Shown here piece after piece: positions 8,501 through 47,500 of a DNA stretch of 64,000 bases. The notes under the pieces are model-generated. The model worked only from the letters and a program-made list of their open reading frames with translations, did not search any database and was not told the DNA's origin. The DNA comes from Owenia fusiformis (taxonomy: Eukaryota > Annelida > Polychaeta > Sabellida > Oweniidae), in the NCBI GenBank assembly GCA_903813345.2, contig CAIIXF020000011.1:32170166-32234165 (forward strand). Direction: 5' to 3'. How positions within the stretch are numbered: position 1 is the first letter of the stretch; each line of letters opens with the position of its first letter. The position numbers and the translations under genes were made by a program.

Positions 8501-11500
8501 CCATTGGTGTATGAGTGTATGATATAGGTATATTAAACAAATAGGGTATGATATGACAACGATGATGTTGTAAACTGGGATTAAAGCACTAGATTTCATT
8601 CTCAAGCAATACTATAGATGATATGATTCCATGGATATGGCTAAACAAAAGTCTGGTGAATGATAAGAAAATATTCCATATACTGTTTTTTCTCTCAATT
8701 TATATTAATAATGATCGATAAAAATCAATAAATATGATATAAATGTATTTCTAAGAATTTGTTATTTTAATTTTTATTTTCTCAAACAGAAAATAATTTC
8801 AGGTTTCAGTATATGAAAAATTTCATAAAAACAAGGAAAATTATGAATCACCAATTATTAATGCTGAAACTTCCAGAAAACGTCCACATGCATCAAACAA
8901 ATTGTAATATATAACCAAAGGGGCTTCTTAACTCATGCAGTATTTTACGGCTTCAGCAGCTCTTAACTAACTTCATATCATATAAATTAACCCCCAGGCA
9001 TTTCCTAAAACTGTAGCAAGATCCAGATCCTTTCAGGGGCCCATTTCTTAACTTTCTCAAAATGTTTCAGAAATGGGTCCCAGACTGGCAAAGCTTCTAC
9101 CTGAATTATCATATATTTCTCTTCCGCTAAATGGATGTAATTCCAATCAGATCCTGGGTATTCATAAAAGCTGTAAAATTCAAAGCATGTTACCATTTTT
9201 TGGGTGGTTATACACACCCGTGAAAATTGAAAACACTTGTACGTTAAACAACTTCTTTGTTTCCAGACAGACACTGCCACATAGGCATCAAAGCCATCTC
9301 CTTAAATTGAAGAACTTCTAAAATATAAAAGAATTATAATTAACATTTTATCAATCTAAGAAATCAGCTCTAAAAATCACCTTTATGTAGCATTTGATGT
9401 CTTCTGGTTGTTTGTTATTTAAAGTTAGTTTGTTTAGTTTATTTGTTTTAATAGAGGTCCCATACTGTCTTAGAATTGAGACAACCCCATATAAATCATT
9501 GTATGATATTATCAATTAATTAGGTATGTTTCTCTCTGCATGTGCTTTTGTATCAGTGAATCTGTTTTGGAACACCTCCACCCACGGTCTAGCTGCTACA
9601 AGCTCAGCAATAAAAATGGGAAATCCATGGAGTAAAATTCCCTCAAAGCAATCTATTCCCAAATTATTATGGGCTATACTCAAAAGATTAATACTTGGTT
9701 GCTAAACATTGATTATCGAATAATATCTCTCTGAAGGTCACATAAAAATTCAAGATACGAAAATTGCTGTGTTTTTTATCAATTGGCTCATAAGTAGGAA
9801 GTTGACAGCGTCTTGATAAATACTGATTAATGATCATCCACATGTTATTTGGCATGTAATGTATTTGAGATTATACTCAATAAAAGCAAGTTTTATTACT
9901 AAGTTGTTTGGGTCTAAAGATCATTCTAAAAATACACAACATTTGTTTTTCAATCACTTTAGATTGTTTGAATTAATATCAGATTGGGACTGTTATGAAC
10001 TGAATCGCAAAATAGAAGTAGTACATGTATGTGAATAATAAAAAATAAAATATGGGAAATTCTGTTCAACAGTGGAGAATGACCATAGGGACATTCGGTG
10101 GAGGCCAGAAAAATGAGACAGCCCATTCATCACCAATCATGAAATCTCCGAGACAACTGGCATTGATGCTACGGCTCATAAAAGTGTTACTTGTTAGAGC
10201 AGGAGTGGAGCAGAATCCTGGTCCATTGACAAATGAGAAAGCAGGTGACTATACAACATTTTGTTTAAATTCTAATTTTTTAATCAAAGTCCCCATGCAA
10301 AGTTTGAACATTTTTCATCCCCAAAATAACTTGTCAAGAGATTTTTTTAAAGTTGTTGACATTTGTAAAATTTTTTATATTCATATAGCTGAAGAATTCT
10401 TTAGAATTATCTTCACACTTTGGATCTTCATCTTTGGGTGTCTAATGCAAATGCTCCAATTATCCACGCCACACAGCTTGGTGTTTTAATTGCTGAAGTA
10501 ATCTGTCCTTCAAACTTCCTAATGTTCACCTCCAAACAAGTCCCAATGGAATCCTCATGGATTATAGCAAATGGGGTTGCCTCTAGAAAGACACCCTCAT
10601 AAGCCAATCAGCTTAACTGAAGTCCCAAAAGGTCTCTTTTTTGTCAAAATTAGGCAAAATGTGCCAAAATATCAATGAAGCAATAAATGAATGGCTCATT
10701 ATTCAGACAGGTAGAGAAGACCTGAAGGAACTCATTGAATCAGTAATACAAAATGCTAACATCGGATTGTTCTTCGATTCACTAAAGCTAATATAAGATA
10801 TCACAAGATACATTTCATTGAAAAATGTTCCAACATCTCACGGCACATCCTATATTCAAAATTGTGTAATACTGTACAGTTTGTTCGAAGGAGAGCAAGC
10901 AAATGTCTCTTAAAGTGAAAAAAACCATATATCAGTATATTAATATACATTAATGAACTTGTTTTGATTAAATATTAACTCACATTCATATTTTATAGTC
11001 AAACTATACTTTCTATCAAATGGCGTTAATGACACTGAGAAAGCACAAAGGGCAACATTTTGAAAAAACATAAGTCCTGCTAAATCAGCATTTCTGTTTA
11101 TCTGTTGACATATGCAGAAGTATGTGAAGTACAATTTAATGAGAAACTAACCATTAAGCATTAAATGTTCATCTTTCAGAGGTAACAAAAGAAATGTATG
11201 AACTTGGTTGCAAAATAAAAGCATGTGACCAACACACTGAGTTGAAAGAACAGGCAGACCTCATGCGCCAACTTGGACAAGAGTATATCAAATCAGCAGA
11301 GACATCTGATATCTGGTATGAACACTACATTTGGTCCTGTGCCTTATATAATGCAGCCAAATGTCGAATAAAGAAACTGATTAGAAAACAAACTGATGGC
11401 ACAAACACAGCTCTTGAGCATGACTTGGAACACATTGACAAACAGCTCCAGCTTATAGAAAGCAACTTTGTAGAGAAGTGTTGGGCCACAAAACATTGCG

Positions 11501-14500
11501 AACTATCAACAAAAACCACAACACAGAAGTACAACAATATACTTGAAAATATACGAGAGTACTCGAACACAACCGTAAATGACATAATTGAGAAATACAT
11601 GGTAGTTGATGATGTGACCACAGAAATGAAAGAGGAAGATGAAGACAACACAATAAAGCACAGCAAGGTGTTTTATAATGGACTTACACAACAGCTTTTA
11701 GATTTTTATAAATCTATCATCAATGATTGTATTTCTGTTTTAGGACATCCCGATTGTAAGTTTGCATTCTTAGCACTAGGTTCCCTATCCCGAAAAGAGG
11801 TCACTGCTTATTCAGATGTTGAGTGGGCAATACTGTTTGATCCCTTAGATAAACCGGTAGATCAAATCAAAACACAACTGCGCATGATAGCCTATTACAT
11901 GCATTTGAAAGTGCTTAACTTGGGGGAAACATTGTTGAACTGCTTAGACATACCTGTTCTGACAGATTATAACAAACACCTACCCCTTGACATGAAAGAC
12001 AATGACTTTTATGACAAAGCAACCACCAGGGGAGTTTCTTTCGATGGGACACAACCTTGGGCTAGCAAGACAGCTATTGGCAGGAAATCAGGAGTAGATC
12101 CCAATAAACCTCCCAGACTTGAACTAATCATGACTGTTGATGAGATGAGCAAGCTTCAGTTCACAGATGAATCAATCAAAGAGGGCTATCACCTTAGTGA
12201 CGTTCTTATGACATCAACACTCATAACTGGAGAATTTAACTTATGGAAGGAGTACAATGAAAAAGTACATTCCATATTATCATCCCCATCCAAAACTAAT
12301 CCAGATGTCACTATAGGTAGAGAACGGGCAATAAGAACACTGAAGAAAGATTTAGAAAAATACAGTGAAAACCCTCTGTCATCAGAATCATTCACTCAGA
12401 AAATGCATACAAAACATGATATATACAGATTTGCTACAATCACAATAAATATCCTGAAACTCATGCATGGTTGCTCATCATTTGCGCCCCTAGATGTGCT
12501 AGAGGAATTGCAAGGGAAGGGAATCATAACTGAAGGGGCAACTAAAGATCTACAAATCATGGTTTGTAGTGTCATTAATCTTAGACACATGGTCTATGGA
12601 AGGTATAAGCAACAAAAGGAATTCATATCATTCTTACCAAGTGACTGTCATGATGACGAAACAACAGAAGTGATGCCGGTCAGAAGTTTTACTGCCATTC
12701 TAAGATTTTTTAACACATTCATGCCCTGGTGTGAATTCCTCAGATTAAACTTGGAAGTAAGTAACACCTGGGAATATAGCAAGACATACCTCGAAGGAAA
12801 CAATGAAGTGAAAGCAAAATTATATAAAAACATTTTCTTCTTCAAGAGGGCATTGCATGCTTATGAAACAGAGTTAAAGGCACTTGAAAACCATGAAGGA
12901 GGAGAGCAAGAGTTGAAAACAGTTTCCATACAGACTGAAATAGGTTCTCTGTATTTGTCACAAGGCTGCTACTCAGATGCAGTGCAGCATTATAAAAATA
13001 GCCTGAAAATAAGCAGAAAAATCAATGATGAAATATGGGTCTCTGTATCACTTAACAACATGGGCCATCTGTATCATAAAATGGGAGATCAGATGAAAGC
13101 ACTGGAATATCATCAAGAAAGTCTGAAAATGTATAGACTAATCCACATAGACAGTCCTAACATACTGGTTGCTAAGTTACTTAACAACATAGGCCTTGTG
13201 TATAAGAGCCTGGGAGATCTGACTAGAGCTCTGAAATACTATCAAGAAAGTCTGACAATGAGAACACTTATCCACGAAGACAGTCCCCACCCAGATGTGG
13301 CTAAGTCACTTAATAATATAGGCCTTGTGTATAGTGATCTGGCAAATCTGACTAAAGCACTGAAATATCTTAAAGATAGTGTGACAATGTATAGGCTAAT
13401 CTACAAAGACAGTCCCAACCCAGATGTTGCTTCTTTACTTAACAACATAGGCTATGTGTATAAAAAACTAGGAGATCTGACTAAATCACTGAAATACCAC
13501 CAAGAAAGCCTGAAAATGTATAGACTAATCCACAAATACAATCCCCACCCAGATGTTGTTAAGCCACTTAGTAACATAGGCAATGTATATAACGATATGG
13601 GAGATCTGACTAAAGCACTGGAATATCATCAAGAAAGTCTGGGAATGTCTAGACTAATCTACAAAGACAATCCCCATCCAGATGTTGCTATGTCACTTAA
13701 TAACATAGGCAAAGTGTATAATGACATGGGTGATCTGTCTAAAGCATTCAGATATCATCAAGAAAGTCTGACAATGTATAGACTTATCCACGAAGACAGT
13801 CCCCACCTAGATGTTGCTACTTCACTTAATAACATAGGCCATGTGTATCATAAAATGGGAGATCAGAAAAAAGCATTGGAATATCATCAAGAAAGTCTGA
13901 AAATGTCTAGACTAATCTACAAAGACAACCCCCATCCAGATGTTGCTACGTCACTTAACAACATAGGCAATGTGTATCAAAAAATGGGAAATCAGATGAA
14001 AGCACTGGAATATCATCAAGAAAGTCTGACAATGTACAGACTAATCTACAAAGATAGTCCTCACATACATGTTGCTATTTCACTTAACAACATAGGCAGT
14101 GTGTATTATGACATGGGAGATATGACTAAAGCACTTGAACATCATCAAGAAAGTTTAACAATGAGAAGACAAATCTACAAAGACAACCCCCATCCAGATG
14201 TTGCTACATCATTGATGAAAACAGGTATTACACATGAGGGAATGGGTAAGCACACAGAAGCTTTGTCTTATTACTTTGAAGCTCTAAACATTGCTCATCA
14301 GTACGGAGGGGATTCACACCCTGATTACATTAAAGCATTGGAATTGATTGATGAGTGTAAGGAATGAAACCTATGTTTCTGCACTCTTATATGACACTGA
14401 CTTAAACATGATCATATGAACAATCCAGGACTCCTAACAGAAAAGGAAGTCTTATATTTTGAAATGTTACTGAAATTCTTGGCTAAAGTCTTATTTCAAT

Positions 14501-17500: not shown

Positions 17501-20500
17501 TGACAAGGGCTTGATGCAAGAATACACTGTATTTTCAATTTTAGTTTAGAATTTAAAACCCTGGTTAAAAAAGACATAATAACATATTACATATCTATTC
17601 TTGCACCTCTGAGTACCATTGCTACAAAAAGTGATTGTTAAATAAATAAATATTTATCCAAGATGCACTTACTTTGTTCAGCAACATAATGATGATCAAG
17701 TTAATACAGGCTGCTGTTGCCGTGGTAGCGAGTTTGGCATTTTCCTGAATATACCTATATGGTTGTGCGTAGAATACTGCGACAATGACAATACGGTACA
17801 CAATCACTCCAAGTAGAGCTGCCAATACAAGGCAAATCTGAAAATATATTGAATTTCGATTTTTGGAAAATCAACATTTTTGAGGGAAATACTGGTCTAT
17901 GGCAGACCCTTGTCAGGAATGATATTTAATAACTTATATCTCTTTACTTAACTGTAAACAAACTAAGTTTACTAAATTATTTAAATTAATGCATACGAGG
18001 GTTGATCCAAAAGTTCTACACTGTTGAATTGATAAGAACTCATACTGACACAAGGTTAACATTTGAATGTTGGCCCGAAATGCAATTTCAGATTCACCTC
18101 TTTCATCAAAAAATTTACGAAGCTGCTTCCTTATAAAAATAGATACATGTATGTGCTACTAAAATATGATGCATTTTTACTCCCTCTCCTAAAGCATCTT
18201 TTTGGGATTATTTTGATATCATAATATGTTGACTTTAACATATAGGGGTTCACCTACCATGAAACATATAACAAGGAGTGATGTAAATCTACGACATCCT
18301 TTACTGTAGAATGGCAAATATGGTTCTTCAATCTTGGTTACTGGGTTTACTTTTGTACGAGTCACCTTGGCTTCAAACTCTGGACGAACATGCTGAAAAC
18401 ATGAGAAATAGTTACGTTTTGTTCATCTCTCCCTGTGGTTGTAAATGTTTGTGTTGACTGGTACATTCACTTGGTAGTATTTCACATACTTGTTTACCAG
18501 TTTGATTTTCAATCAGTCATATAAAAACTTTATACCTTGGGAATCCAAAATGAGTATTTAATTTATTGAGTATTTAATTTATTGAATACTTCATTTATTG
18601 AGTATTTCGCTGAACTCAAAGCTTGACATATTAAGGTAATGTTCTAAATCCAGTCACCTTCCAACGGTTGACCCAGACTTCAAAATCTGGTCAAGCTTTA
18701 ATTTTATTTAATATTTAAGAGCCTCTTTAATGGTATGGTATGCTTTTTGCAAATATTTCTTTCAGCATCCTACACATTCTATTCTTTAGTGCTTCTTTAA
18801 ATGTTGATTACCAGGGCAATAGTTTTCTAAAATCATACCTCTTCAAACTCATAGTCTGCCACATCCCAATCATATTCAATCTCAGCCTGTTTCCTCTTCC
18901 AGAACTCCAGAAACACAGTTGCTGCAAATACATTATATTCTATTATATGTGAATTCTTTTGTTTTGTAATTATAACATAATTATAAAGAAGTTCAGGGAT
19001 GTAAACCACATGAAATTCTATTTGCAAAATCCATGTTTTATATGTACCAGAGCTTATCTCTGGATGAATGGAGGTGCAATGAAAAATACTTTTAATGTAT
19101 TCTGTATTAATAATAATAAAAATTGAGTATAGAGGGAGTTAATAGCTGCTGAAGGGGTTAAATAATAAATCCATTAGAGAGAGGGTTAATAACTTCTGAG
19201 GGGGGTTCTCTTTAACCAAATAAGTATTTAACTATATTATGTATACCAATCATATTTTTGCCAACACTGTTATTGTATTTGGCATATAGGCTAGCTATGC
19301 GGTTCGGTTCGTTGGGTAGACACAATATGCAGTGATGTTTAAATGGTCATACATCAGGGAATATATCAGTAAGTCCCATTATCTAGTAAGGTCAAAAGAC
19401 CACTACATTAAACTGTAATATGTTTTCATGAGCAACTTATTCAAGATGGAAGCACTAGAGTCCATGAATCTACTACCATCAAATAACACAACATATATGG
19501 GGCTTGTAAAATAATACAATATAAGAACAGATTCTTTACAAAACAGATACTTCATCAGATGCTTCATGAACTATGGAAACAGATTAAAATATAATAGAGA
19601 AAAAATTAGTTCAACTGTGATATATAGGATGAAAATATTAACTGACTCTTTTCAATCAGGACACAGACCTGATACACTCACCAAAACAGTAAGTGAATCC
19701 TAAAAAACTGGATTATATAGACATAGTAAAAATATAAAGCAGCATTGTATAATCATACAGTACAAGACAATTTTCTAAACATGCAGAGCAAATATTTGAA
19801 CATTTCGGTATCAGTGCTATACTTGATCTGTATTTATTCAGAGCACATGGTCAAAGCCAGGAAAAATGTCTTATTCATTCTATCTGATGATCTCAGGCCT
19901 GAGATAAAAGCACTTTATGACAAGGCTAGCCCATACCAAATGAATCCTTCTATCTACACACCAAACCTTGATGAATTTTCAAAACACAGCGTCGTGTTTA
20001 GAAAAGCCTATGTACAGGTGGCGCTATGTTCCCCGAGTAGGACATCATTTTTAACAGGGCGTCGTCCAGATACAACAAAAGTCTATAATTTGAAAGATCA
20101 TTTCAGAAATGTCGGTGGAAATTTTACAACCATTCCACAGTACTTTAAAGAGCATGGATATCGTTCAATAGGAATGGGAAAGATTTTCCATCATCAAACC
20201 AAAGATGGTGGTGACATTCTATCATGGTCCCATGACGAGCCATACTTCACTCCAAAAAGACGCCCATCATTCTGGGAAACTGTGAGAACTGAAAAATCAT
20301 GGATTGCGATAAATGAAACAACAGAACTCGAACACCCGTTACACGATGATCGATCAACTGATTATGCAATAGGTTGCCTCAGAAGGTTAGCGCCAAAAGC
20401 TCTATCAGGTGAAGAAAATTTTATTCTGTCTGTTGGATTTGCCCTTCCACACCTGCCCTTCATTTTCCCAAGGAGGTTCCTTAGGCATTATCCTATGGAC

Positions 20501-23500
20501 AATATCAGTATGCCAACTAACCCTTATCTCCCTAAAAACATGCCTCCATATAGTATCAATCTTGGATGGGAGTTTATGGAATATGCTGACATTGCAGCAC
20601 TACCGGATAATCCTAACAGCCGAAATAAGAAGCAATATAATAATAAAAAAATCCATGAATTAAGAAGAGCTTATTTCGCATCAATAAGTTATGTTGATTC
20701 CCTTTTTGGACATTTAATACAAGAACTCAAAGATTTAGGTCTGAGTGAAAATACCATTGTGCTATTTGCCGGAGATCATGGGTATCATTTATATGAGCAT
20801 GCAATTTGGGGAAAACTTACAGATTACGAGATTGCCACCAGGGCTCCATTAATGATTCACGTCCCAGGCATTACAGATAACCACAAAGGGTTTATCTCGG
20901 ACCACTTAGTAGAATTCACTGACATCTATCCTACACTTGTTGAACTAGCTGGCCTCCAAACTATCCCTCAATGTCCAGAGAATTCCACTAATGTCAAAGT
21001 ATGCTCGGAGGGAAGTAGTCTCGTCCCAATAATAAACAACCCAATGGTTAAAAGTAAACCAAGGGTATTCAGCCAATACTTGAGACAGTATAGGAGACAA
21101 TATATAATGGGATACAGTATGCGTACTAGACGCTATCGTTACACAGAATGGATCGAGTTTATATCAAAACCAGCAAATACACCAATGTGGAATTCAGTTA
21201 AATGGAGAGAAATGCATGATCATTTAAATGACCCCGAGGAGAACATTAACCTTGCGAAAAAGCCAGAATACGCAGAAATAGTTGAGCGACTTAGCAGGCG
21301 CCTCAGAAATGGCTGGAGAGCTGTAAGGCAACAAAGTGGCGCGAACATAGAAAATGATATTACTGTTGATGAAAAGGATATAAACAATATTAAACAGCCT
21401 AATATCAATGATGATGAGAGTGTTACAAATGATGAAAATGATGTATTAGTACACACATTGCCCATGATGTCACGAGAACATGTCATTTTAATAGCCTTAG
21501 CAGGGGCTTTTTGCTTTTTTCAATTCATATTTTTCAGAAAACTATTCTTTAATTACAAAAGGAAGAATCATCATACCCCATTAAAAGATGATTTAGAAAA
21601 AATGTAAATATAAATTTTGTTATTAAACCAATAATACTTTAGGATTTTTATTTCACAAATTAATATCTTGATCAAAAATTAAAAGATTTGACACTCCTCA
21701 AAAAATTGTAGATTCCACTGTAGACAAAGGAATGAGTGCCTAACAAACCTTTGCCTGAGACAACAATGTCAAGTGTACTTACATAATAGAAATAATAAAC
21801 AAATAAACAGTATTCAAAAAGTATTTTACTTATTTCAATAAATATTATCTACAGTATTTGTCTTTAATTTGGCAAGTGTTTTAAATTGGCAAATTTTGGC
21901 GAGATAATAAACTCCTGGGGGGTTGACTGTTATGAGAATGCCCTCGAAATTATGACTTTTGAGGTATGGCAATTGTCAGATTTTTCCACTTTCTGGTATG
22001 AGAATGGTCATGGAAAAAATGTTACCTCTCACTTTTGGTATGGCATTGGTTTAGTTGTCATAAATATCCTTAATTTGAGGTTGTTTTATATCATTTTCCT
22101 CAAAGATCTGCCTTCTACCTGAGGCTTTAGACATTTTGAATGCCCTTGGTCTTATATTTGGATATTTGGTATAGCATTGGACCTATATTTGGACATTTGG
22201 TATGACATTGGTGGCCTTATATTTGGACATTTGGTATGGCTTTTGGGTGTTTTTGGATTGTATGGGAACACATTTAAATGTGACAGATTGGTATGGGAGC
22301 ATGTTGATACATGTATCTGAGGGTTCAGCCTAGGACCCCTGTAGAATTTTGTATACAGTGAACCCCCCAGGAATAAACTCCTGGATTGTATAATTCATGG
22401 CAAAAATATGACCCTGGATTTTTTTCTACCTACATGTACTGACCTCAGTCCATTTCAAAAATCAGTGTCTTAACAATGATCAGGAAAATCTGTGGCCATC
22501 ATCTTGGTCTTTTCCCCTAATTATATTGGTTATATTTTATAACAGTTAAATATGTTGTTGTAAACAATAGCAGACTTCTAATTCACATGACACACACCTA
22601 TTCCTACTTTGTATTTCATTGAATTATAGTGTATCAATATGTTGAATATCAATATCCTGATCCCTTTTTTCAAAGGCTTTTCAACAGTGCATTGTAATAA
22701 GATCTTTACATTTGTCATTTGACCCTGGACTTCAATTACAAAACTAGGTAAAATTAGAAATATATCATGGATAGTATAACCCTTAAGACAAGAGGATAAT
22801 TGAATATGATCAATAGAATTATGAAATCCTTGTGTGAGCAAAAGGCTTAAGTAATACTTCATTGACACATTTCTTAAAGGCCCCATATGAAGTTTGAAAA
22901 TAATTAGTTTAATCATTCAAATATTATTTTTCATGACTTGAAAAACCATTTGAGAATTCTTTTTTGAAATATGTCTTTTGAAAAGAAGTTGTTGATCTCA
23001 TGATTTTCAAACATTTGGATTTCCCGCCATTGAGGAAACAAAAGTTTAGATTTTCAGATCATCAAATACATTACTAAAGATTGTATAACTTATCATTTAC
23101 TCTACTATGTAGATAAGATCAGGAAAACATCACATTATTTCATTTAATCTACACTTTTATGCACATATAAACTTTTAAAGCACTTGTGATGTCACAACAA
23201 TACTCTGTGATGTAACACAGGTGGCAAAATATTTTTCAAAAATTGTCACTTTTTTCTTGAACATATATCTTATAATATGCCAAACTTTCAAAATAAAGCA
23301 ATATTGTTGGCCTATTTAGGTAGAATATAAGTTTTTATCATGTTTTAAATATTTATGTCACATTGGATTCAATGAGAACTAAAATTTAAAAAAAGCTTTT
23401 TACTCTGAACAACTTACTTACTTCTTGCATATTTTCAATAAATTTTCTTAATATTTAACACAAAATAGGCTAGGACGTATGTAATGCATTGTTGTAAATT

Positions 23501-26500
23501 ATTACTCAACAATTAATGTGTGTGACAACGAAGTTTGTTTATAAAAAGTCTTCAAAAATCAATTTTAAAAAAATTGTCAAAAATTTGGTATTTTCAGAAC
23601 AAAATTGTCTTATGACTCTTTGTCATCACAATGACAAATGTGTCGCTAGACTGTACAAAAAAAATGAACTAAACAAAACCAATCTGGCTACAAAATAAAA
23701 ACAAAAATACATATAAAGTCAAGTCATGTAAAAGTAGAACAAAATGTAAATAAATACAGGTACCAGTGTGATGTATCATCTGCACAATAGCAAATTATAT
23801 AAAGACTTTGCTAAACATAAAATCATTTAAGAATTTTATGAGACATTAGCTTTTTCAATATAACATCAGGCCTACAATTATATTACCTAAGGGTGTCATA
23901 CCAGTTTTCTTACAATTGTATTTTCTTTACAAGCAAATCATAACAAAATGTTCCCTATCTTCTATAGCACTACAAAGATTACATTAAAGTTCCTTGACAA
24001 GTTTTGGCTTTGGCTTTAAATGAGGTCCAAGTTGAACTAGAAAAAAACACCAAACAAATCATATTTTCCTTTTAGAAAAATCTTGAAAAACTTTCTTTGG
24101 CAGAGGTCCTATTGTCCTAATGCCCCTGTATAGGATGAAATTAGAACCAAATCTGTATGCTGATATTTGAGTTGTGATATTTGAGAATACATTTACAAGA
24201 AATATGGTAGCCATTTTCAATTGAGTGGCCATACTGAGAAATCATTCTCGATTGATGAGCGGCTAGATTAACAGACAGATGGATGGATGGCTTCTCTAAT
24301 CTCTATATCCCTCCTAACCTATGTTGGGTGGGATGAAATTCCGATAAATATACATCCGGCTTGACTTGAGACACATTTTATATAACAGTGACTAAACAAA
24401 TAACCTATTTTGATTGGATTTGTTCTCACCTTGGCAACCATAACAGAATATTGTGGAGAATCGAGATCCTATGTTATAGATCAATATTAATTAAGTAATA
24501 GGGGCTTATAAAGCATGATGTAAGACAGTTTACAATAGATTATGCCGCTTGGAAATGAATTCTTTTAAAAGTCACTACAGATAAGACATGCCTTTGAGTT
24601 AAAAATAATTTTATAGTTTTTGCATGTTATGTAATCAGAAATAAATCATTCAACATGGGAAAAATAACACAAAGTTTGGTCAAAATCATTTTCACAACAA
24701 TTTGTATTTCAATAACAGAGTGCTCAAGTTCTACTTATATAGGAAAACTGTTCAACATAGCAAAAAATGAGGAATTCATACCTGACAACATAATACCAGA
24801 AGTTGGACATTTAAGAAACATCGTAACTTCTTCAGTTATGGACTGTAATGAAGAATGTGTTAAACATTCAAAATGCACTCAAACAAATGTTGAACAACTG
24901 ACGGCAACAACATGGAATTGTGATTTGTTTGGTTTGGGAAGAGGGGCTAAAATAAGCAGTCCAGGCCATCTTCATTATTTCGTGCCAATGAGTGGTGAGT
25001 GATGGGTTTGATTAGTTATTTTAGTGCATTCAATCTACATTGAATCTAAAACCTTTTTCCAAAAGGAAATGCTTCAGTTACAAATATTATTTATTCATTG
25101 TTTCATTTTAAGTTTTTGTGATGCCATTTTTTAAATTTCTATTTAAATAATATACCATCAGTTTTGAAAATCAATTTGTTCACTTTATGATCAATTATCT
25201 ATTGCACATTATGATAAATTTTTCATGAAATTTACACCAATCTTCAACAAAGGAATAAAAAATTAAACTCCCGCCAAAATCCCAAATGTATGTTTGTTAC
25301 TCAATGATTTTGGTGTTGTATATTTGTGCAGAATGTCCAGGGGTTTTTCTCACAACCATCCACAGTGGCTCATCATACTGTATCAGCCATGAAACTTTGA
25401 CTTGGACAGATGCAGAGATGAAATGCCTTGAATATGGCGCAACTCTCGCCACCATAGAGGATTCAAGTGAACAAGCAGACTTGGTGGCCTACTTACTGAA
25501 TAATGCCCAGCGTAAGACTTTAGATCACTTTAAATTGAAAGTCCACTTTAGTAATTTATTCAGTGAGAAATTTACAATGAGCAAATGTATCAAATCAGAA
25601 CATGGCAACATAGTTCTCAGACTTGGGGTGTCAGATTCATTCACCACATAACAAAAGAAAGTCATTTGAAAAGTCATAGTCTGCTGATACACAAGATATC
25701 AAACAAATGTTGAACACCTATTTTATTAAACTGGATATTGCCGATTTGGCTTTCACTTTCTATTTCGAAATTTTTTAAGCATGATACTTCTTTTATATGT
25801 CACTGTGGTGTCCTAGATTGTGACATGTCATAAATTGTGTGCATGTTTGTATATATCTTTTTTATAAATGAATGACATTCTTCCAAATTATACTGATAAT
25901 CAGCACTTTAATTCAGAGGTAAAAAAAACTAACCCCGGAGTCACTTTTATTTTTAGCAAGTATGAGTTACAATATTGGCCTTAGTGACAGAGCAGAGCCA
26001 GAGGTCTGGGTGTGGTCGGGAACAGGAACAACAGCAACATATTTCAGTTGGGGTGGCGCTGACCCTCAGGTTGCAAACAATGAACGTTGTGTTACTATGT
26101 GCTCTCATCGTAGTTACAAATGGTGTGACGTGCAGTGTTCATCTTTATTAGGTTATATTTGTGAACGCTAAACAGCTTAAGAGATGACCATGATGAAAGT
26201 TTCAAATGGTGTGACATGGTAGATGTGACATAAGTTCAGATTTATGTGTGCACATGTAACAGAAGGCATATGCTGAAAAAGTTCAAGATTGCTTTGGGAT
26301 GTGTAATATGAATTACAATTATATATATATATAACTTTTATTGACATATAGTATCATAACATGATTACATTAGTCAGAACTATGGTAGACTACATATCTA
26401 AACTACAAAACACCAACTAAACTAAAAATACAAAAAATATATAAAAATATATAAGGTAACAATAATAGTGTGGTGCACACACAATGCATTATGACCATGC

Positions 26501-29500
26501 TAAATTCTTAAATGAATGGTAAATGAATTTGCCAATATGTCTTTGCAAGGTTACATTTTTACTAGAAATAAGATTGACAAATAAATTTTCACTTTGTAAA
26601 TCCAAGTTAGGTAAAATTTCACGGGCTTTTGTATATAATATTTGCCTATTCTCATCATTTTTTGTACAAGCTAAAAAGAAATGACATTCATCCTCTACAT
26701 CTTTACAAATATTACATACTCTTTCCTCTAAAGGTTTTGGTTTTGGCTTTGTATGTCTTCCAGTCTCAATTGCTAACTGATGAGAACTCATTCTAAATCT
26801 ACTTGTAGCCAATCTATACTTTTTATTATTGATGTGACACAATGTATATTTAAGGGTCTTATTTGTGAACAAAATGACAGCAATATAATAGACCACCAGA
26901 AATATAAATACACTGTAGCGTGAAATCTACTCTTAACCTGTGTATTGTTTATTTGTGAATGCTTAATTGCAGCAACAGATATTACCAGAGATATGAATGG
27001 AGTACATATATTTTTTGAACCGACTCTTAATCATGTCTGTCTCTCTGACAGATTTTACACATATTTTGTAAAGTATATTTTGACAAATGCTGTCCTACTC
27101 TATATGTCTGTGATCTACTTACCCCATAAAGCCATGAATGCAGCGAAGAAAACAGTGGAGGGATTATCAAACAAATAGGTGGCTCTGCTGTATAAACAGG
27201 AAGTGGATAGCTTCCAGTAGTAGCATCGTTTATCACACAGCGGGCACATTGTGATGTTCCCTGCACCACTTTTGTCACATATATCTTCACTGTAAACACA
27301 ATTAAAGGGAGAATAAGCTTTAATATAGAGATATTTTGGTTTTTGCTTACAACATTCTTTAAGATATTTTCTTTAAATCTCATAGATCAAGGCTCAAAGA
27401 TTTCCTTGTTTCTGCATATTTTTTAGAGGTGTAACTCGCGAGAAAAATCCAACTCGAGTTCAACTTGCCAAATATTTCCAAAACTCGAGTTAAACTCGAG
27501 TTCATTCATTTCGTCCAGTACATGTTGTAAACCCGGGTATACAAAATTATTGTAGCTTCTAGCGGCAAGTTTCTCTGGTTTAGTAACATCTAAAAGCTGT
27601 TTTACACGTTGGGGCCATATGAAAGTGTGGTATTCATTGCAGTTATCTCATATTTCAATCAAAAACGATCTGGTATAGACGTCGCCGCATACGGTAAGGA
27701 TGAGAGATCGCTAGAATCTAACCAAACAATATTTTAGAAAACCCAGAAAGGCCCCTCAAATTAATGAATGGTTTTCCCGGATTATCTTAATTATTTATAC
27801 TAAAGCGATCTAAAGTTTATGTAAAAGTCGTGTAAACGACGTGAGAATAAGGAGACCATTTTTATTCAATTTTAGTGACTTCTCTATTATCGCCCGCTTG
27901 AGTTCCTTCGATAGTCGATCTTTTTCTGATATTTCGTCATTCCACGATATTAGTTGAACTTTGTGAAGCTTTTAGAGTGTTTTTTAGGTGACGGGCGCTA
28001 AATATGGCGATCGTTGGTATATTTATTCCACTAATGAAGTAATGTTGCACGATCTCTGGGACCCGAATTCATTTTACATGCTTACAAGATAGGCAAAACT
28101 CGCGAGTTGACTCGAGTTATAGCTAGCTCGCGAGTTGAAATAGATTGCGAGTTTCTAGAGGACAACTCGAGGCAATGTATAGGCAGCTCTGACGAGCTGT
28201 ACTCGAGTTACTGACTCGGGAGTTACACCTCTAATATTTTTCCAATTAATGAAAAAATCAAATCAAGTATTTTCCTCTGTTTTTCAAACAGATGTGTAAA
28301 AGATACATAAATACCAATAATCTGAAACTGTATCTGCAGAAATGCATACTATTTTCTCTCTATATTAATTTTGTTTGGAGAATGGGTGGCAAAAGGGTCT
28401 TTCTAAAATATGAGAATCAGTACCACTTTTACAGAAAATCACCTTATCAAAAGTTTGGAAAACAAAGTGTGTGAGTACATACTCTTTCAATTAATCAAAT
28501 GGATTCAACTAAAATTTAGTGCAAGATGACATTTAAGTCCTAAGTTACCATGGGATGCATCTCATACCTTGGTATATTCTCCCACAGCGTTGCTATTCCA
28601 TAAATGAAGACGGCTAAACCAACTAAAGAGGCAGGAATCAACATCCCTGTGTAGAATCCAAGCCAGGCAAAATATATACCAACTTTCTCGCCAAAGTAGT
28701 TTCTGATGAGATCTAGGGGTTGATGTTTGTACCATACGCCAGGCCTGGCCCATGTCTCATACAACAACTGAAAACAAGGTATATTTAATATTTATACATA
28801 ATAGGTGGGACATAAGAATTTGTTTGACAAATCGAAAGAAAGACAGAAATATATCAAAAAAAGAAGATTTTGGGAGTAAAAGTCTCACGTATGAAACAGT
28901 GATACTGACGAAGAATTCCAATATTTTCTTTAATATTAACACAAGATCAATAAAAGAAACTCCAGCTTCTTTTTTAGTAATAATACTTTCATGAATAGCA
29001 TCGTTTATCCAAAATATCAAATACAAAAAGCAGTATTGATAATTACACTTAACATCTCATATTATAATAATTCTATAAGTAATAGAAAATATATAAAACT
29101 GCTTAGTCAGATTATCCTACGACCTACATTGATTACCAATAATTTGATCATTTATATATAACATATAATTACAAGTCTGATGTTGTTTATATCGATACAA
29201 ATTCAATAACTTCTTCATTCAGGGTCTGATTTTCTTGCAATTTAATACAAAATTATTGTACAATTTAGAATTTAAATTAAGCATAATTTTCCAATTACAA
29301 TGAAGTTTGCGTGACAAGGACATTACCTCATTAAGTTTCAAACAATCATTTTCTTTCAATCATTTGCCTGTCATTAGCTTGCATGTTTAAAAACTCATTT
29401 GTATTCAAAGGACTTATACCGCACAAAATTTCAATTTTGATCTTAAACTAGATGTTCTGTGTTACACACAGACTTCATAAGATGGAATAAGGGGAATAGG

Positions 29501-44500: not shown

Positions 44501-47500
44501 CCTTTTACATTACCTTACGATCCTCAACTTCCAATTCCAAGCCCTCATCATGAAGGTTAGCTTGAAAGGTTTCTCTCCTTTCCCTTTTCTTATCTTCACT
44601 GTTTCCAGAGCCCTCTTTATATGCGATGACGTAATCAATTTTCCGCTTTCCATCTCGGAAATACAGCTGAGAGTTTTCATCCTACAAGAAACAAAGAAAA
44701 TATTATGTACCATAATGCAACATATTTAGCAGATGGGTTATTGTAGGTTACCCACAATGCACTAGTATAAACACAAGCAGTGCACTGGTCAGTCACGCAT
44801 GCATTTTATGTCATCATTAATGTTTTTTAAACCACAACTTTCAAACAGCCCATAATCCTTTGTGCAAAAACATCAAATCAAACTCAATATTGCTTCCTAT
44901 GAAAGAGGGCCATTAATGGCAGCCAATTCTATCAAGGATTATAGGAAATTACCACTTGGGAATTAGATAATCACAAAAATATATACATGTGTCACATATA
45001 GTGTTTTAATATGCAGTACAGTAAAACCTCTATATGCAAGTAGTTCAGTGCATTAATGGTGAGCTTGTATATATCATAAAGAAAATTCATGCATCTGACA
45101 AGTAGCAATGAATTGACACAAATTAACATGCAAAACAGTGATTAACTTTGGAAGTATCCTATGATAACCAAAATATAGTATTATTTTATCATAGAGGTGA
45201 AGATCATTTGGTCGAACAGCAAGTGAATGTTCCTAACTTTGTAATAAAAGATCTTTACTCTCAAAGTTAGAATAAAAATCTGTCAAGTAGAACACGTCAA
45301 AAGTAGAACACTTTTAAGGTGCACCAAAGGTGTTCCACTTTTTACGCAGGTTGTACTATACTACACTGACACCCTAGTAGTAAATGAAACCCTCTATACC
45401 AAGGAATTCTAGTTCATAAAGTTAGTACAAGGGTACCCTTGACTGAATTCCCATTTGTTAGTTGAATACTACATAAGTAAGGTATCATTAGTTGATCCAT
45501 ATTTAGAGTACCATTAATAATGGCACTATTAGCTATGGTACCATTGGTACCATTATTATTATTATTATAGTATTTAGATCTGGTGTTAACAAGTCTTTAG
45601 ATGATGGTCATTAGAAAAAGCTTGGTTTAAGGAAGTCTATATGAATTAAATGTAGAGTACTGAATTACAGTACAAGATGTTATATACCATTGTTAGAAAA
45701 GTATATGTCATTCTTGCCATGCTTATTTCACTCCAAATTTGAAAAAAACATCTCCCATTTAGAGTGTATGTATCAACAACAAGTACATTCATTCATTCCT
45801 TGAAGATTCCACCTGATTGTTTCTTATTTTTGGATAGTTAAGCATGGCCATATCATGCATGACATATAACCCAAAGCAATAAGAATTGTTATTTTCCATA
45901 GAGGTACAGATAAAGTGTATATAGTATCTATAAGAGATGTAATGATAGTCCTGTATATAGTCCACAAACCTTCTTGTTATACCATCCCTGTGTATTGATC
46001 AAGTTGACATCACCCGTGCTTTGCTAAAATAAAGTCTCATCTGGATTAGGATTGACTAAGTATCTGAATGAAGTCAGGCTTATCTAGGTCTGAATTTGTC
46101 TAGGTTTCTAAATCAACCTAGGTCTAACTTTGGTCTGACATACTTAGGTCTGAATTTGTCTAGGTTTCTAAATCAACCTAGGTCTAACTTTGGTCTGACA
46201 TACTTAGGTCTGAATTTGTCTAGGTTTCTAAATCAACCTAGGTCTAACTTTGGTCTGACATACTTAGGTCTGAATTTGTCTAGGTTTCTAAATCAACCTA
46301 GGTCTAACTTTGGTCTGACATACTTAGGTCTGAATTTGTCTAGGTTTCTAAATCAACCTAGGTCTAACTTTGGTCTGACATACTTAGGTCTGAATTTGTC
46401 TAGGTTTCTAAATCAACCTAGGTCTAACTTTGGTCTGACATACTTAGGTCTGAATTTGTCTAGGTTTCTAAATCAACCTAGGTCTAACTTTGGTCTGACA
46501 TACTTAGGTCTGAATTTGTCTAGGTTTCTAAATCAACCTAGGTCTAACTTTGGTCTGACATACTTAGGTCTGAATTTGTCTAGGTTTCTAAATCAACCTA
46601 GGTCTAACTTTGGTCTGACATACTTAGGTCTGAATTTGTCTAGGTTTCTAAATCAACCTAGGTCTAACTTTGGTCTGACATACTTAGGTCTGAATTTGTC
46701 TAGGTTTCTAAATCAACCTAGGTCTAACTTTGGTCTGACATACTTAGGTCTGAATTTGTCTAGGTTTCTAAATCAACCTAGGTCTAACTTTGGTCTGACA
46801 TACTTAGGTCTGAATTTGTCTAGGTTTCTAAATCAACCTAGGTCTAACTTTGGTCTGACATACTTAGGTCTGAATTTGTCTAGGTTTCTAAATCAACCTA
46901 GATCTACTTTTGGTCTGACATACTTAGGTCTGAATTTTTCTAGGTTTCTAAATCAATCTAGGTCTAACTTTGGTCTATGATTCAATCAAGGTCTAGTGTT
47001 TGTCCAAATCTCTAAATCAACATGATTGTTTTTAAATTTGTCTTTGTGCCTCATTCAATCTAGGTGGAGATATCTCTGTCTGTCTATTAATCTATCAATG
47101 TTTGAATTCTTCCTGGTCTATGAATCAATCAATTAAAGTCTGAATTTGTCTGATATGTGGTAGTTGTATATTATAGTTGTATATTATAGCTCTGGAATAT
47201 AGTGAAGTGTTGTATGTGCACACTGAAATGATCAATAATAGTGTGCATCCCTGAAAATGCTGTGCATTGCTGAAAATTTGGTACTGCCCTGAAGTACTGT
47301 GTATCCCTAAAAATACTGTGCTTCCAAGACAATACTGTGCTCTCTGAAAATGCTGTGTATTGCTGAAAATAGCCTGCTTCCCTGGAAATACTGTGCCTCC
47401 AAAACAATACTGTGCTCTTCAAAAATGCTGTGCTTTTTTATAATTCTAGCAAATGCTGTGCAAAACAGTAAATGCTACAAAAAATATATAGAGATGAAAA

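Follow-up and report, generated by a model that had tools for sequence, protein, structure and literature searches.

A conserved 2A-like leader exon, probably of retrotransposon origin, upstream of an expanded nucleotidyltransferase–TPR gene family in Owenia fusiformis

APE-type non-long terminal repeat (non-LTR) retrotransposons bearing 2A (StopGo) sequences have reportedly been described (Odon 2013, as cited in PMC12846837). Among cellular genes, the known 2A carriers are the sea urchin NLRs (available parts of PMC4981915 and PMC11512398), and the available part of PMC12846837 regards host use of 2A as rare. Here, we describe a gene in a 64,000-nucleotide stretch of the annelid Owenia fusiformis (assembly GCA_903813345.2, contig CAIIXF020000011.1, positions 32,170,166 to 32,234,165 of the forward strand; this whole stretch is "the window", numbered from its first letter) in which a 2A-like leader exon stands ahead of a single large exon encoding a nucleotidyltransferase (NTase) domain and an array of tetratricopeptide repeats (TPRs). 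It is one of 76 NTase loci detected in the 498-Mb genome. We consider it probable, judging from sequence, that members of this family splice a conserved leader exon to the NTase–TPR body, that the leader undergoes 2A skipping and derives from a mobile element, and that the proteins act as sensors or effectors.

The closest described system is that of the Strongylocentrotus purpuratus NLRs, whose 2As, in the available part of PMC4981915, likewise belong to a host multigene family, stand at the N terminus and consist of an L-rich segment followed by (V/I)ExNPGP. In that system, however, the bodies are NLRs and the 26-amino-acid leader is itself the signal, whereas in O. fusiformis the bodies are of the NTase–TPR type, the measured leaders are 54–95 amino acids long, a module of consensus MGxSxxQWRxAIGxF is present and G occupies p12 of the 2A. 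An earlier sequence-only reading of the window had likened the leader to the 2As found N-terminally in sea urchin NLRs and some non-LTR retrotransposons, and the comparison is borne out: as read from the sequence, a host multigene family does carry an N-terminal 2A, its body being a DUF294 NTase plus TPRs and not an NLR (NACHT-LRR). NACHT was also considered as a 2A partner and set aside; there are 7 NACHT matches, and the nearest listed 2A site is ~160 kb off, as judged by eye.

The 2A core of the window gene agrees with the published definition. GVEQNPGP fits the widened core (D/G/C/N)(V/I)ExNPGP given in the available part of PMC12846837; by that account, RNA viruses carry G at the first core position as often as D, and the variant D12G is confirmed to be functional. 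The Gly for Asp substitution, over which the sequence-only reading had worried, is thus no defect, because the published core allows G. Upstream of the core, the window leader is L-rich with A at p11 and G at p12, which by eye fits motif 5 of the same source, an L-rich motif with (A/G/S)G at p11–p12 that lies outside the set assayed there. Most relatives of the window leader have GG in place of AG, which is likewise compatible with motif 5. Across the 498 Mb, VExNPGP occurs at 87 sites with 1 control match and IExNPGP at 75 sites with 5 control matches.

These sites are associated with the NTase family in position and strand, a relationship computed directly from the genome. A search with the NTase part gave 80 matches, merged into the 76 loci, a lower bound. 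Upstream and on the same strand, 27 of the 76 loci have an E-core 2A site within 3 kb, 34 within 6 kb, 37 within 10 kb and 41 within 15 kb; in the opposite-strand control a 2A site was found near none of the 76 up to 30 kb, and a single one turns up at 60 kb and beyond. On the same strand downstream, 2 of the 76 loci have such a site at up to 6 kb and 12 at up to 30 kb, a number that tandem arrays would be expected to give. When both leader patterns are counted, 44 of the 76 loci have a leader within 15 kb, and 53 of the 66 closer loci (at least 37% identity) have a same-strand upstream leader at up to 90 kb, although leaders at distances such as 60–90 kb need not belong to the gene in question. 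None of the 10 distant NTase bodies (<37% identity) had a leader within 90 kb. Paralogues with this layout of 2A exon and NTase–TPR body, for which the sequence-only reading had suggested a search, therefore exist.

The splice signals point to a single transcript. In the window gene, the earliest in-frame ATG is at 10052, with an in-frame TAA immediately 5′ of it (10046–10048); the donor GCAG/GTGACT after 10244 and the acceptor TTTCAG/AGGTAAC at 11180 both lie in phase 1. The sequence-only reading was right about these coordinates and the splice phase, about the nucleotidyltransferase and TPR domains, and about a 2A-like leader carrying splice signals that match those of an NTase–TPR body. Twenty-eight loci were examined with both leader and body: the 2A is followed by a consensus-like phase-1 donor at 27 (that of L020 is weak), and a phase-matched acceptor precedes the conserved body start at 26. 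Of the other two, L010 begins its body in a different frame, and L019 lacks a clear acceptor. Some paralogues would need introns of tens of kb, as might be expected if exon 1 belonged to another transcript, or formed a short upstream reading frame, and were not joined to the NTase–TPR exon. The 27 donors and 26 matched acceptors among 28 loci, and the 34 same-strand 2A sites within 6 kb against none on the opposite strand, argue against such an arrangement, which we regard as highly improbable.

The leader itself contains two conserved modules. Most leaders open with MG(N/I/V)(S/T)xxQWRxAIGxF and close with (A/G)G(V/I)ExNPGP; between the two lie a variable spacer and then an L-rich stretch. 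An alignment of 19 distinct leaders, drawn from 41 rows after exclusion of near-duplicates, long leaders and leaders starting outside the fetched stretch, has 15 invariant columns (M1, G2, W8, R9, I12, G13, F15, L46, L47, G51, E53, N55, P56, G57 and P58). The sequence-only reading overlooked the leader's other conserved module besides the L-rich 2A, the retrotransposons that carry it and a subclade with Q or H in the core. An independent search (ASCERTAINMENT) with QWRxxIGxF, a pattern silent on 2A, found 104 sites against 2 in the control. A nearest-leader analysis used 100 of them, and 46 of the 100 proved to be the closest leader upstream of an NTase locus at a distance of up to 60 kb; an E/Q/H-xNPGP core lies within 700 bp in 45 of these 46 leaders, found by the QWR module alone. 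A literature search for QWRAAIG and five variants of the string returned no occurrence in the papers covered. Two unusual arrangements were seen among the leaders. On C8 (34411950–34413600; L108), tandem partial copies of the N-terminal module lie 5′ of a complete leader, and the three copies read are without the terminal NPGP. On C11 (27975500–27983120; L057 and L124), the 2A core is directly repeated within the leader (GIEKNPGPRVIETD twice) upstream of a TPR exon, with no NTase in the stretch read.

Both modules are under purifying selection, with a relaxed spacer between them. The ratio of nonsynonymous to synonymous divergence (dN/dS) was computed for 33 loci with a recognised leader start and a body, using the 69 pairs whose bodies had a synonymous difference (pS) of 0.03–0.45. 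Pooled over these pairs, the spacer stood at 0.70, against 0.13 in the N-terminal module, 0.15 in the L-rich segment, 0.10 in the core and 0.22 in the body. Because pairs share branches, the calculation was repeated with 13 non-overlapping pairs; the spacer then gave 0.47, and the N-terminal module, L-rich segment, core and body gave 0.21, 0.23, 0.05 and 0.22, respectively. In this set the nonsynonymous to synonymous counts were 57:69 in the modules and 97:59 in the spacer (Fisher p = 0.006). As it was the core pattern that brought up most of the leaders, the core value is biased low. Several synonymous codons are used at the invariant leader residues. This constraint bears on the suggestion that the leader has been decaying since a retrotransposon 5′ end was exonised, with a 2A that has lost its function and an exon of no importance beyond its role as a 5′ exon. 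Such decay would suit the presence of the same module and a 2A-like core in retrotransposons, the partial tandem leader copies on C8 and the one leader ending in DPGP, but it does not sit well with purifying selection on both modules beside a relaxed spacer, nor with 45 of 46 intact cores when leaders are ascertained by the other module. We consider it quite unlikely.

The same leader module is found in retrotransposons of this genome. There are 162 E-core 2A sites; 40 of them are the 2A site closest to an NTase locus at up to 15 kb, and 20 of the other 122 were read. Fourteen are followed by retrotransposon endonuclease-like sequence (in another frame at L043), four are host-type leaders (L052, L055, L056 and L057, with L056 lying 46 kb upstream of an NTase locus) and two are unassigned fragments (L041 and L058). 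The endonuclease-like calls rest on Pfam, run on five of the 14, and on inspection by eye for the remainder; of six reading frames scanned, five match endonuclease and/or reverse transcriptase families. Twelve of the retrotransposon loci read carry the first leader module together with a 2A-like core. The module has the initial MG in L043, L051 (where the final F is missing), L110, L113, L115 and L116, and is without it in L054, L109, L111, L112, L117 and L118. By Pfam, L054 has module, 2A, endonuclease and reverse transcriptase in a single open frame, and L051 has a short host-like spacer followed by a coiled-coil frame and then an endonuclease frame; in L043, L109–L113 and L115–L118, endonuclease-like sequence starts after the leader, as judged by eye. 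All nine of L109–L113 and L115–L118 have H at p14, mostly as GD(V/I)HxNPGP, with an additional core change in three (NDVHPHPGP in L110; NPGQ at the end in L109 and L117). Like the 2A-bearing APE-type non-LTR retrotransposons mentioned above, the elements of this genome have the 2A before the endonuclease domain, some with the QWR module. The module-bearing elements mostly have, by eye, several hydrophobic segments between module and 2A, and nine have H at p14, whereas the spacer of host leaders is short and (A/G)G(V/I)E is their usual form at the core.

Since the distant NTase–TPR loci are without the leader and several element families carry it, an element origin is the simpler reading. We infer that an ancestral NTase–TPR gene probably picked up the leader, once the 5′ end of a non-LTR retrotransposon, and that the two then multiplied together; the reverse transfer, from host leader to element, is less simple. 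A tree of the bodies, covering 71 of the 76 loci and 5 of the 10 bodies with <37% identity, has leaders within 15 kb in 41 rows, spread over most branches of the closer clade. At this 15-kb criterion the leader label requires 11 gains or losses, compared with a shuffled mean of 23. Some of the losses would be only apparent, as that criterion misses leaders ahead of longer introns, those with a Q/H core and the one ending in DPGP. A leader was also sought in the small clades L089/L090, L091–L093/L095 and L096/L097, and none was found. The tree is most simply read as a single early acquisition.

In the model we favour, the mRNA would start with the conserved leader exon, joined in frame to the NTase–TPR body. 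During translation of the leader, the L-rich 2A would block formation of the peptide bond between G57 and P58, so that a free 57-amino-acid leader peptide (MGNS...NPG) would be released and the NTase–TPR protein would begin with proline, with a fraction of the product made unskipped. The diversified groove of the TPR solenoid would bind a target, and the DUF294/DrrA-type NTase domain would probably attach a nucleotide to a protein, the whole serving innate immunity as a sensor or effector in the cytosol.

The core Glu is not retained in all leaders. For the pattern GG(V/I)(Q/H)xNPGP, 17 sites were found and none in the control; eight of the 17 read GV(Q/H)LNPGP and lie on C7, C33, C136 and C354. 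A tree clade of seven genes is without the E core (L081–L085, L087 and L094); six of the seven have a Q/H core upstream on the same strand, at 5 to 82 kb, and the seventh, L084, is on a 15-kb contig. In these cores, GGV(Q/H)LNPGP, Glu is replaced by H in the leader L104 and by Q in L105, L114 and L122. In the available part of PMC12846837, H at p14 is described as active in its natural context, and E14Q is cited at 56% or 26% activity in other contexts. A bolder version of our model, which we put forward tentatively and think somewhat less likely to be right than wrong, is that a retrotransposon-derived StopGo leader has been domesticated in an expanding family of NTase–TPR sensors, that the leader peptide is itself a conserved product, that the skipping ratio is tuned among paralogues through E, Q or H at p14, and that the family fills the place of the 2A-led NLRs of sea urchins.

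Leader hydropathy varies among paralogues. The hydropathy score of the 15-residue stretch (KD15) is at least 2.0 in 15 of 30 distinct leaders (33 loci), and the window leader and its nearest relatives score 1.43–1.89 with a charge of +3 to +4 inside the stretch; the 2A core is retained in both classes. By analogy with the sea urchin NLR 2As, unskipped protein could enter the secretory pathway through a hydrophobic leader and skipped protein could stay in the cytoplasm. The N-terminal position of the leader, the strongly hydrophobic stretch in half of the distinct leaders and the precedent in the available part of PMC4981915 are compatible with such dual targeting, but the charge and modest hydropathy of the window group are not what it predicts, and a conserved 15-residue N-terminal module precedes the hydrophobic stretch, unlike the 26-amino-acid sea urchin signals of that source. 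A secretory role is unlikely to be common to all leaders, because only 15 of the 30 are strongly hydrophobic and that of the window gene is not. The dual targeting proposed in the sequence-only reading is plausible mainly for the strongly hydrophobic paralogue leaders and fits the cationic amphipathic leader of the window gene poorly; as a general explanation it is possible but rather unlikely.

The relatives of the NTase domain bear on its chemistry. The window body matches DUF294 (PF03445) at 24.9 bits against a cut-off of 21 (E = 2e-5), and genome-wide there are 53 DUF294 matches at E ≤ 0.001, all over the cut-off. Within the set A2, DUF294 is matched by 20 of 20 members at E ≤ 0.1 and SidM_N by 14 of 20, the window's own body not being among the latter; weak GlnD/GlnE profile matches also occur among family bodies. 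The key residues of GSLxRxExTxxSDxE are kept in 68–70 of 70 bodies (G200 70/70, S201 69/70, D212 70/70, E214 69/70), matching GS...D-x-[DE], which we take to be the nucleotidyltransferase active-site signature. A search of the PDB with the A2 profile returned DrrA structures at E = 1.4e-5 and 2.2e-5, plus five chance-level rows; with a single sequence it returned no match. DrrA/SidM adenylylates a Rab protein. The better match, to its N-terminal adenylyltransferase domain (PDB 3nku, 6yx5; PF20879), lies around the GS...SD motif and spans ~73 profile positions; the family here has DxE where the DrrA sequence has DxD.

One bacterial relative came from the Chlamydiae. A scan of 84,980 bacterial and archaeal species (GTDB) gave 28 candidate stretches and one relative (L121), a protein with DUF294 and DUF294_C in a metagenome-assembled genome of an uncultured member of the Chlamydiae; the scan used two short patterns, and other relatives may be missed. 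A pattern scan of viral contigs gave 12 candidate stretches and no relative. In the available part of PMC4209131, the Neochlamydia NEX2 family comprises 50 proteins with TPRs, most with an F-box and DUF294, and tested members have a working type III secretion signal. The two families are alike in their mid-protein DUF294, C-terminal TPRs and large expansion; unlike the O. fusiformis family, NEX2 is bacterial and has F-box or OTU domains and a type III secretion signal, and that part of the paper mentions no 2A.

Given the DUF294/GlnD, DrrA and chlamydial relatives, protein nucleotidylation appears to be the likelier chemistry of the NTase. The domain might instead make a nucleotide second messenger, cGAS/OAS-like or other, as could be suggested by the NTase signature with its two conserved acids (DxE), the sensor-like repeat domain and a weak match of the distant paralogue L103 to the Hailong anti-phage nucleotidyltransferase HalB (E = 0.011, 15 bits against a cut-off of 190). 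The profile matches, however, are to DUF294, SidM_N and DrrA structures, and no cGAS, OAS or SMODS family appeared among the Pfam, NCBIfam and PADLOC matches at the thresholds used, a weak form of evidence; we think second-messenger synthesis very unlikely. Of the families that the sequence-only reading had named for a profile search, DUF294 was confirmed, GlnD was matched weakly and cGAS/OAS-like families were not matched at the thresholds used. The best PADLOC match of the window body (PDC-M70A, E = 1.2e-4) covers 29 residues around the GS motif and was too short to use.

The TPR units diversify at groove positions. The window protein has 11 TPR_10 stretches in Pfam (TPR_12 at 1e-102; several units over the cut-off), and the most variable positions of its units are 9, 12, 2, 31 and 13. 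Positions 2, 9, 12 and 13, which we take to line the ligand groove, were chosen from the window entropies, leaving out the variable position 31, and tested in 8 other genes. There, the nonsynonymous and synonymous differences per site (pN and pS) were 0.39 and 0.26, a pN/pS of 1.51 against 0.39 in the remainder of the repeat, and 5 of 20000 random four-position sets reached that pN. The groove ratio exceeded that of the rest in each of the seven genes with at least 3 units, although in L127 and L129 the rest itself has values around 1 or higher. The contrast is weaker in the window gene, at 1.39 against 0.85. For a seven-position set that we likewise take to line the groove (2/5/9/12/13/33/34), the ratio was 1.00 in the other genes (0.39 for the rest) and 0.86 in the window gene (0.85 for the rest).

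Several observations weigh against the model we favour. Thirteen of the 66 closer genes have no leader at up to 90 kb; the contig upstream falls short of 10 kb for just two of the 13 (C495 and C409). Motif 5, to which the window context is fitted, lies outside the assays in the available part of PMC12846837, where the change from Glu to Gln, found with His in the seven-gene subclade, is cited at reduced activity. One leader, beside the L076 body, ends in DPGP and not NPGP (GGIEMDPGP), the sole exception of 46. The low core dN/dS is partly a product of ascertainment, a bias of which the values for the N-terminal module and the L-rich segment are free. The window leader, at KD15 1.89 and charge +3, is less hydrophobic than half of its relatives. 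No NTase fold was obtained, AlphaFold2 on a two-row alignment giving a pLDDT of 36.7. Finally, a single acquisition is not established, because the tree needs 11 gains or losses.

Dozens of genes with two-module leaders under purifying selection, sharing a module with retrotransposons of the same genome, offer a natural panel for the function of cellular skipping, and a diversified TPR groove tied to an NTase with bacterial adenylyl- and uridylyltransferase relatives offers testable chemistry for an expanded candidate immune family. A literature search found no paper on a 2A-led NTase–TPR family among the matches listed, although a 2025 survey of eukaryotic 2As (Rao et al.) may list members.

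Table 1. Parts of the 2A-led NTase–TPR gene, in window coordinates
Feature	Position	Strand	Remarks
Exon 1 (leader exon)	10052..10244	+	58-amino-acid leader through NPGP, six more residues, split codon (phase 1); same exon in paralogues
N-terminal module, consensus MGxSxxQWRxAIGxF	10052..10096	+	Invariant columns in leader alignment; low dN/dS
L-rich segment, 5′ of 2A core	10160..10201	+	Cationic amphipathic in window gene; dN/dS, hydropathy
2A/StopGo core GVEQNPGP	10202..10225	+	Predicted skip between G57 (10220-10222) and P58 (10223-10225)
Phase-1 intron, GT...AG	10245..11179	+	Splice signals also seen in paralogues
Exon 2, single large body exon (NTase + TPR)	11180..14367	+	Stop TGA 14365-14367
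DUF294 nucleotidyltransferase match	11704..11883	+	PF03445, amino acids 175-234
TPR array	13048..14206	+	129-bp units (43 amino acids), 9.0 copies by TRF

Elsewhere in the window, a single long frame on the forward strand (19730–21607) encodes a sulfatase (PF00884, 1.9e-40), and a weak C-type lectin match (PF00059, E = 0.005, below the cut-off) lies at 25259–25651, also on the forward strand. Minisatellite-like arrays at 79–567 and 46072–46980 yield repetitive reading frames. On the reverse strand, a frame at 26489–26926 resembles, by eye only, the Cys/His end of a retrotransposon.

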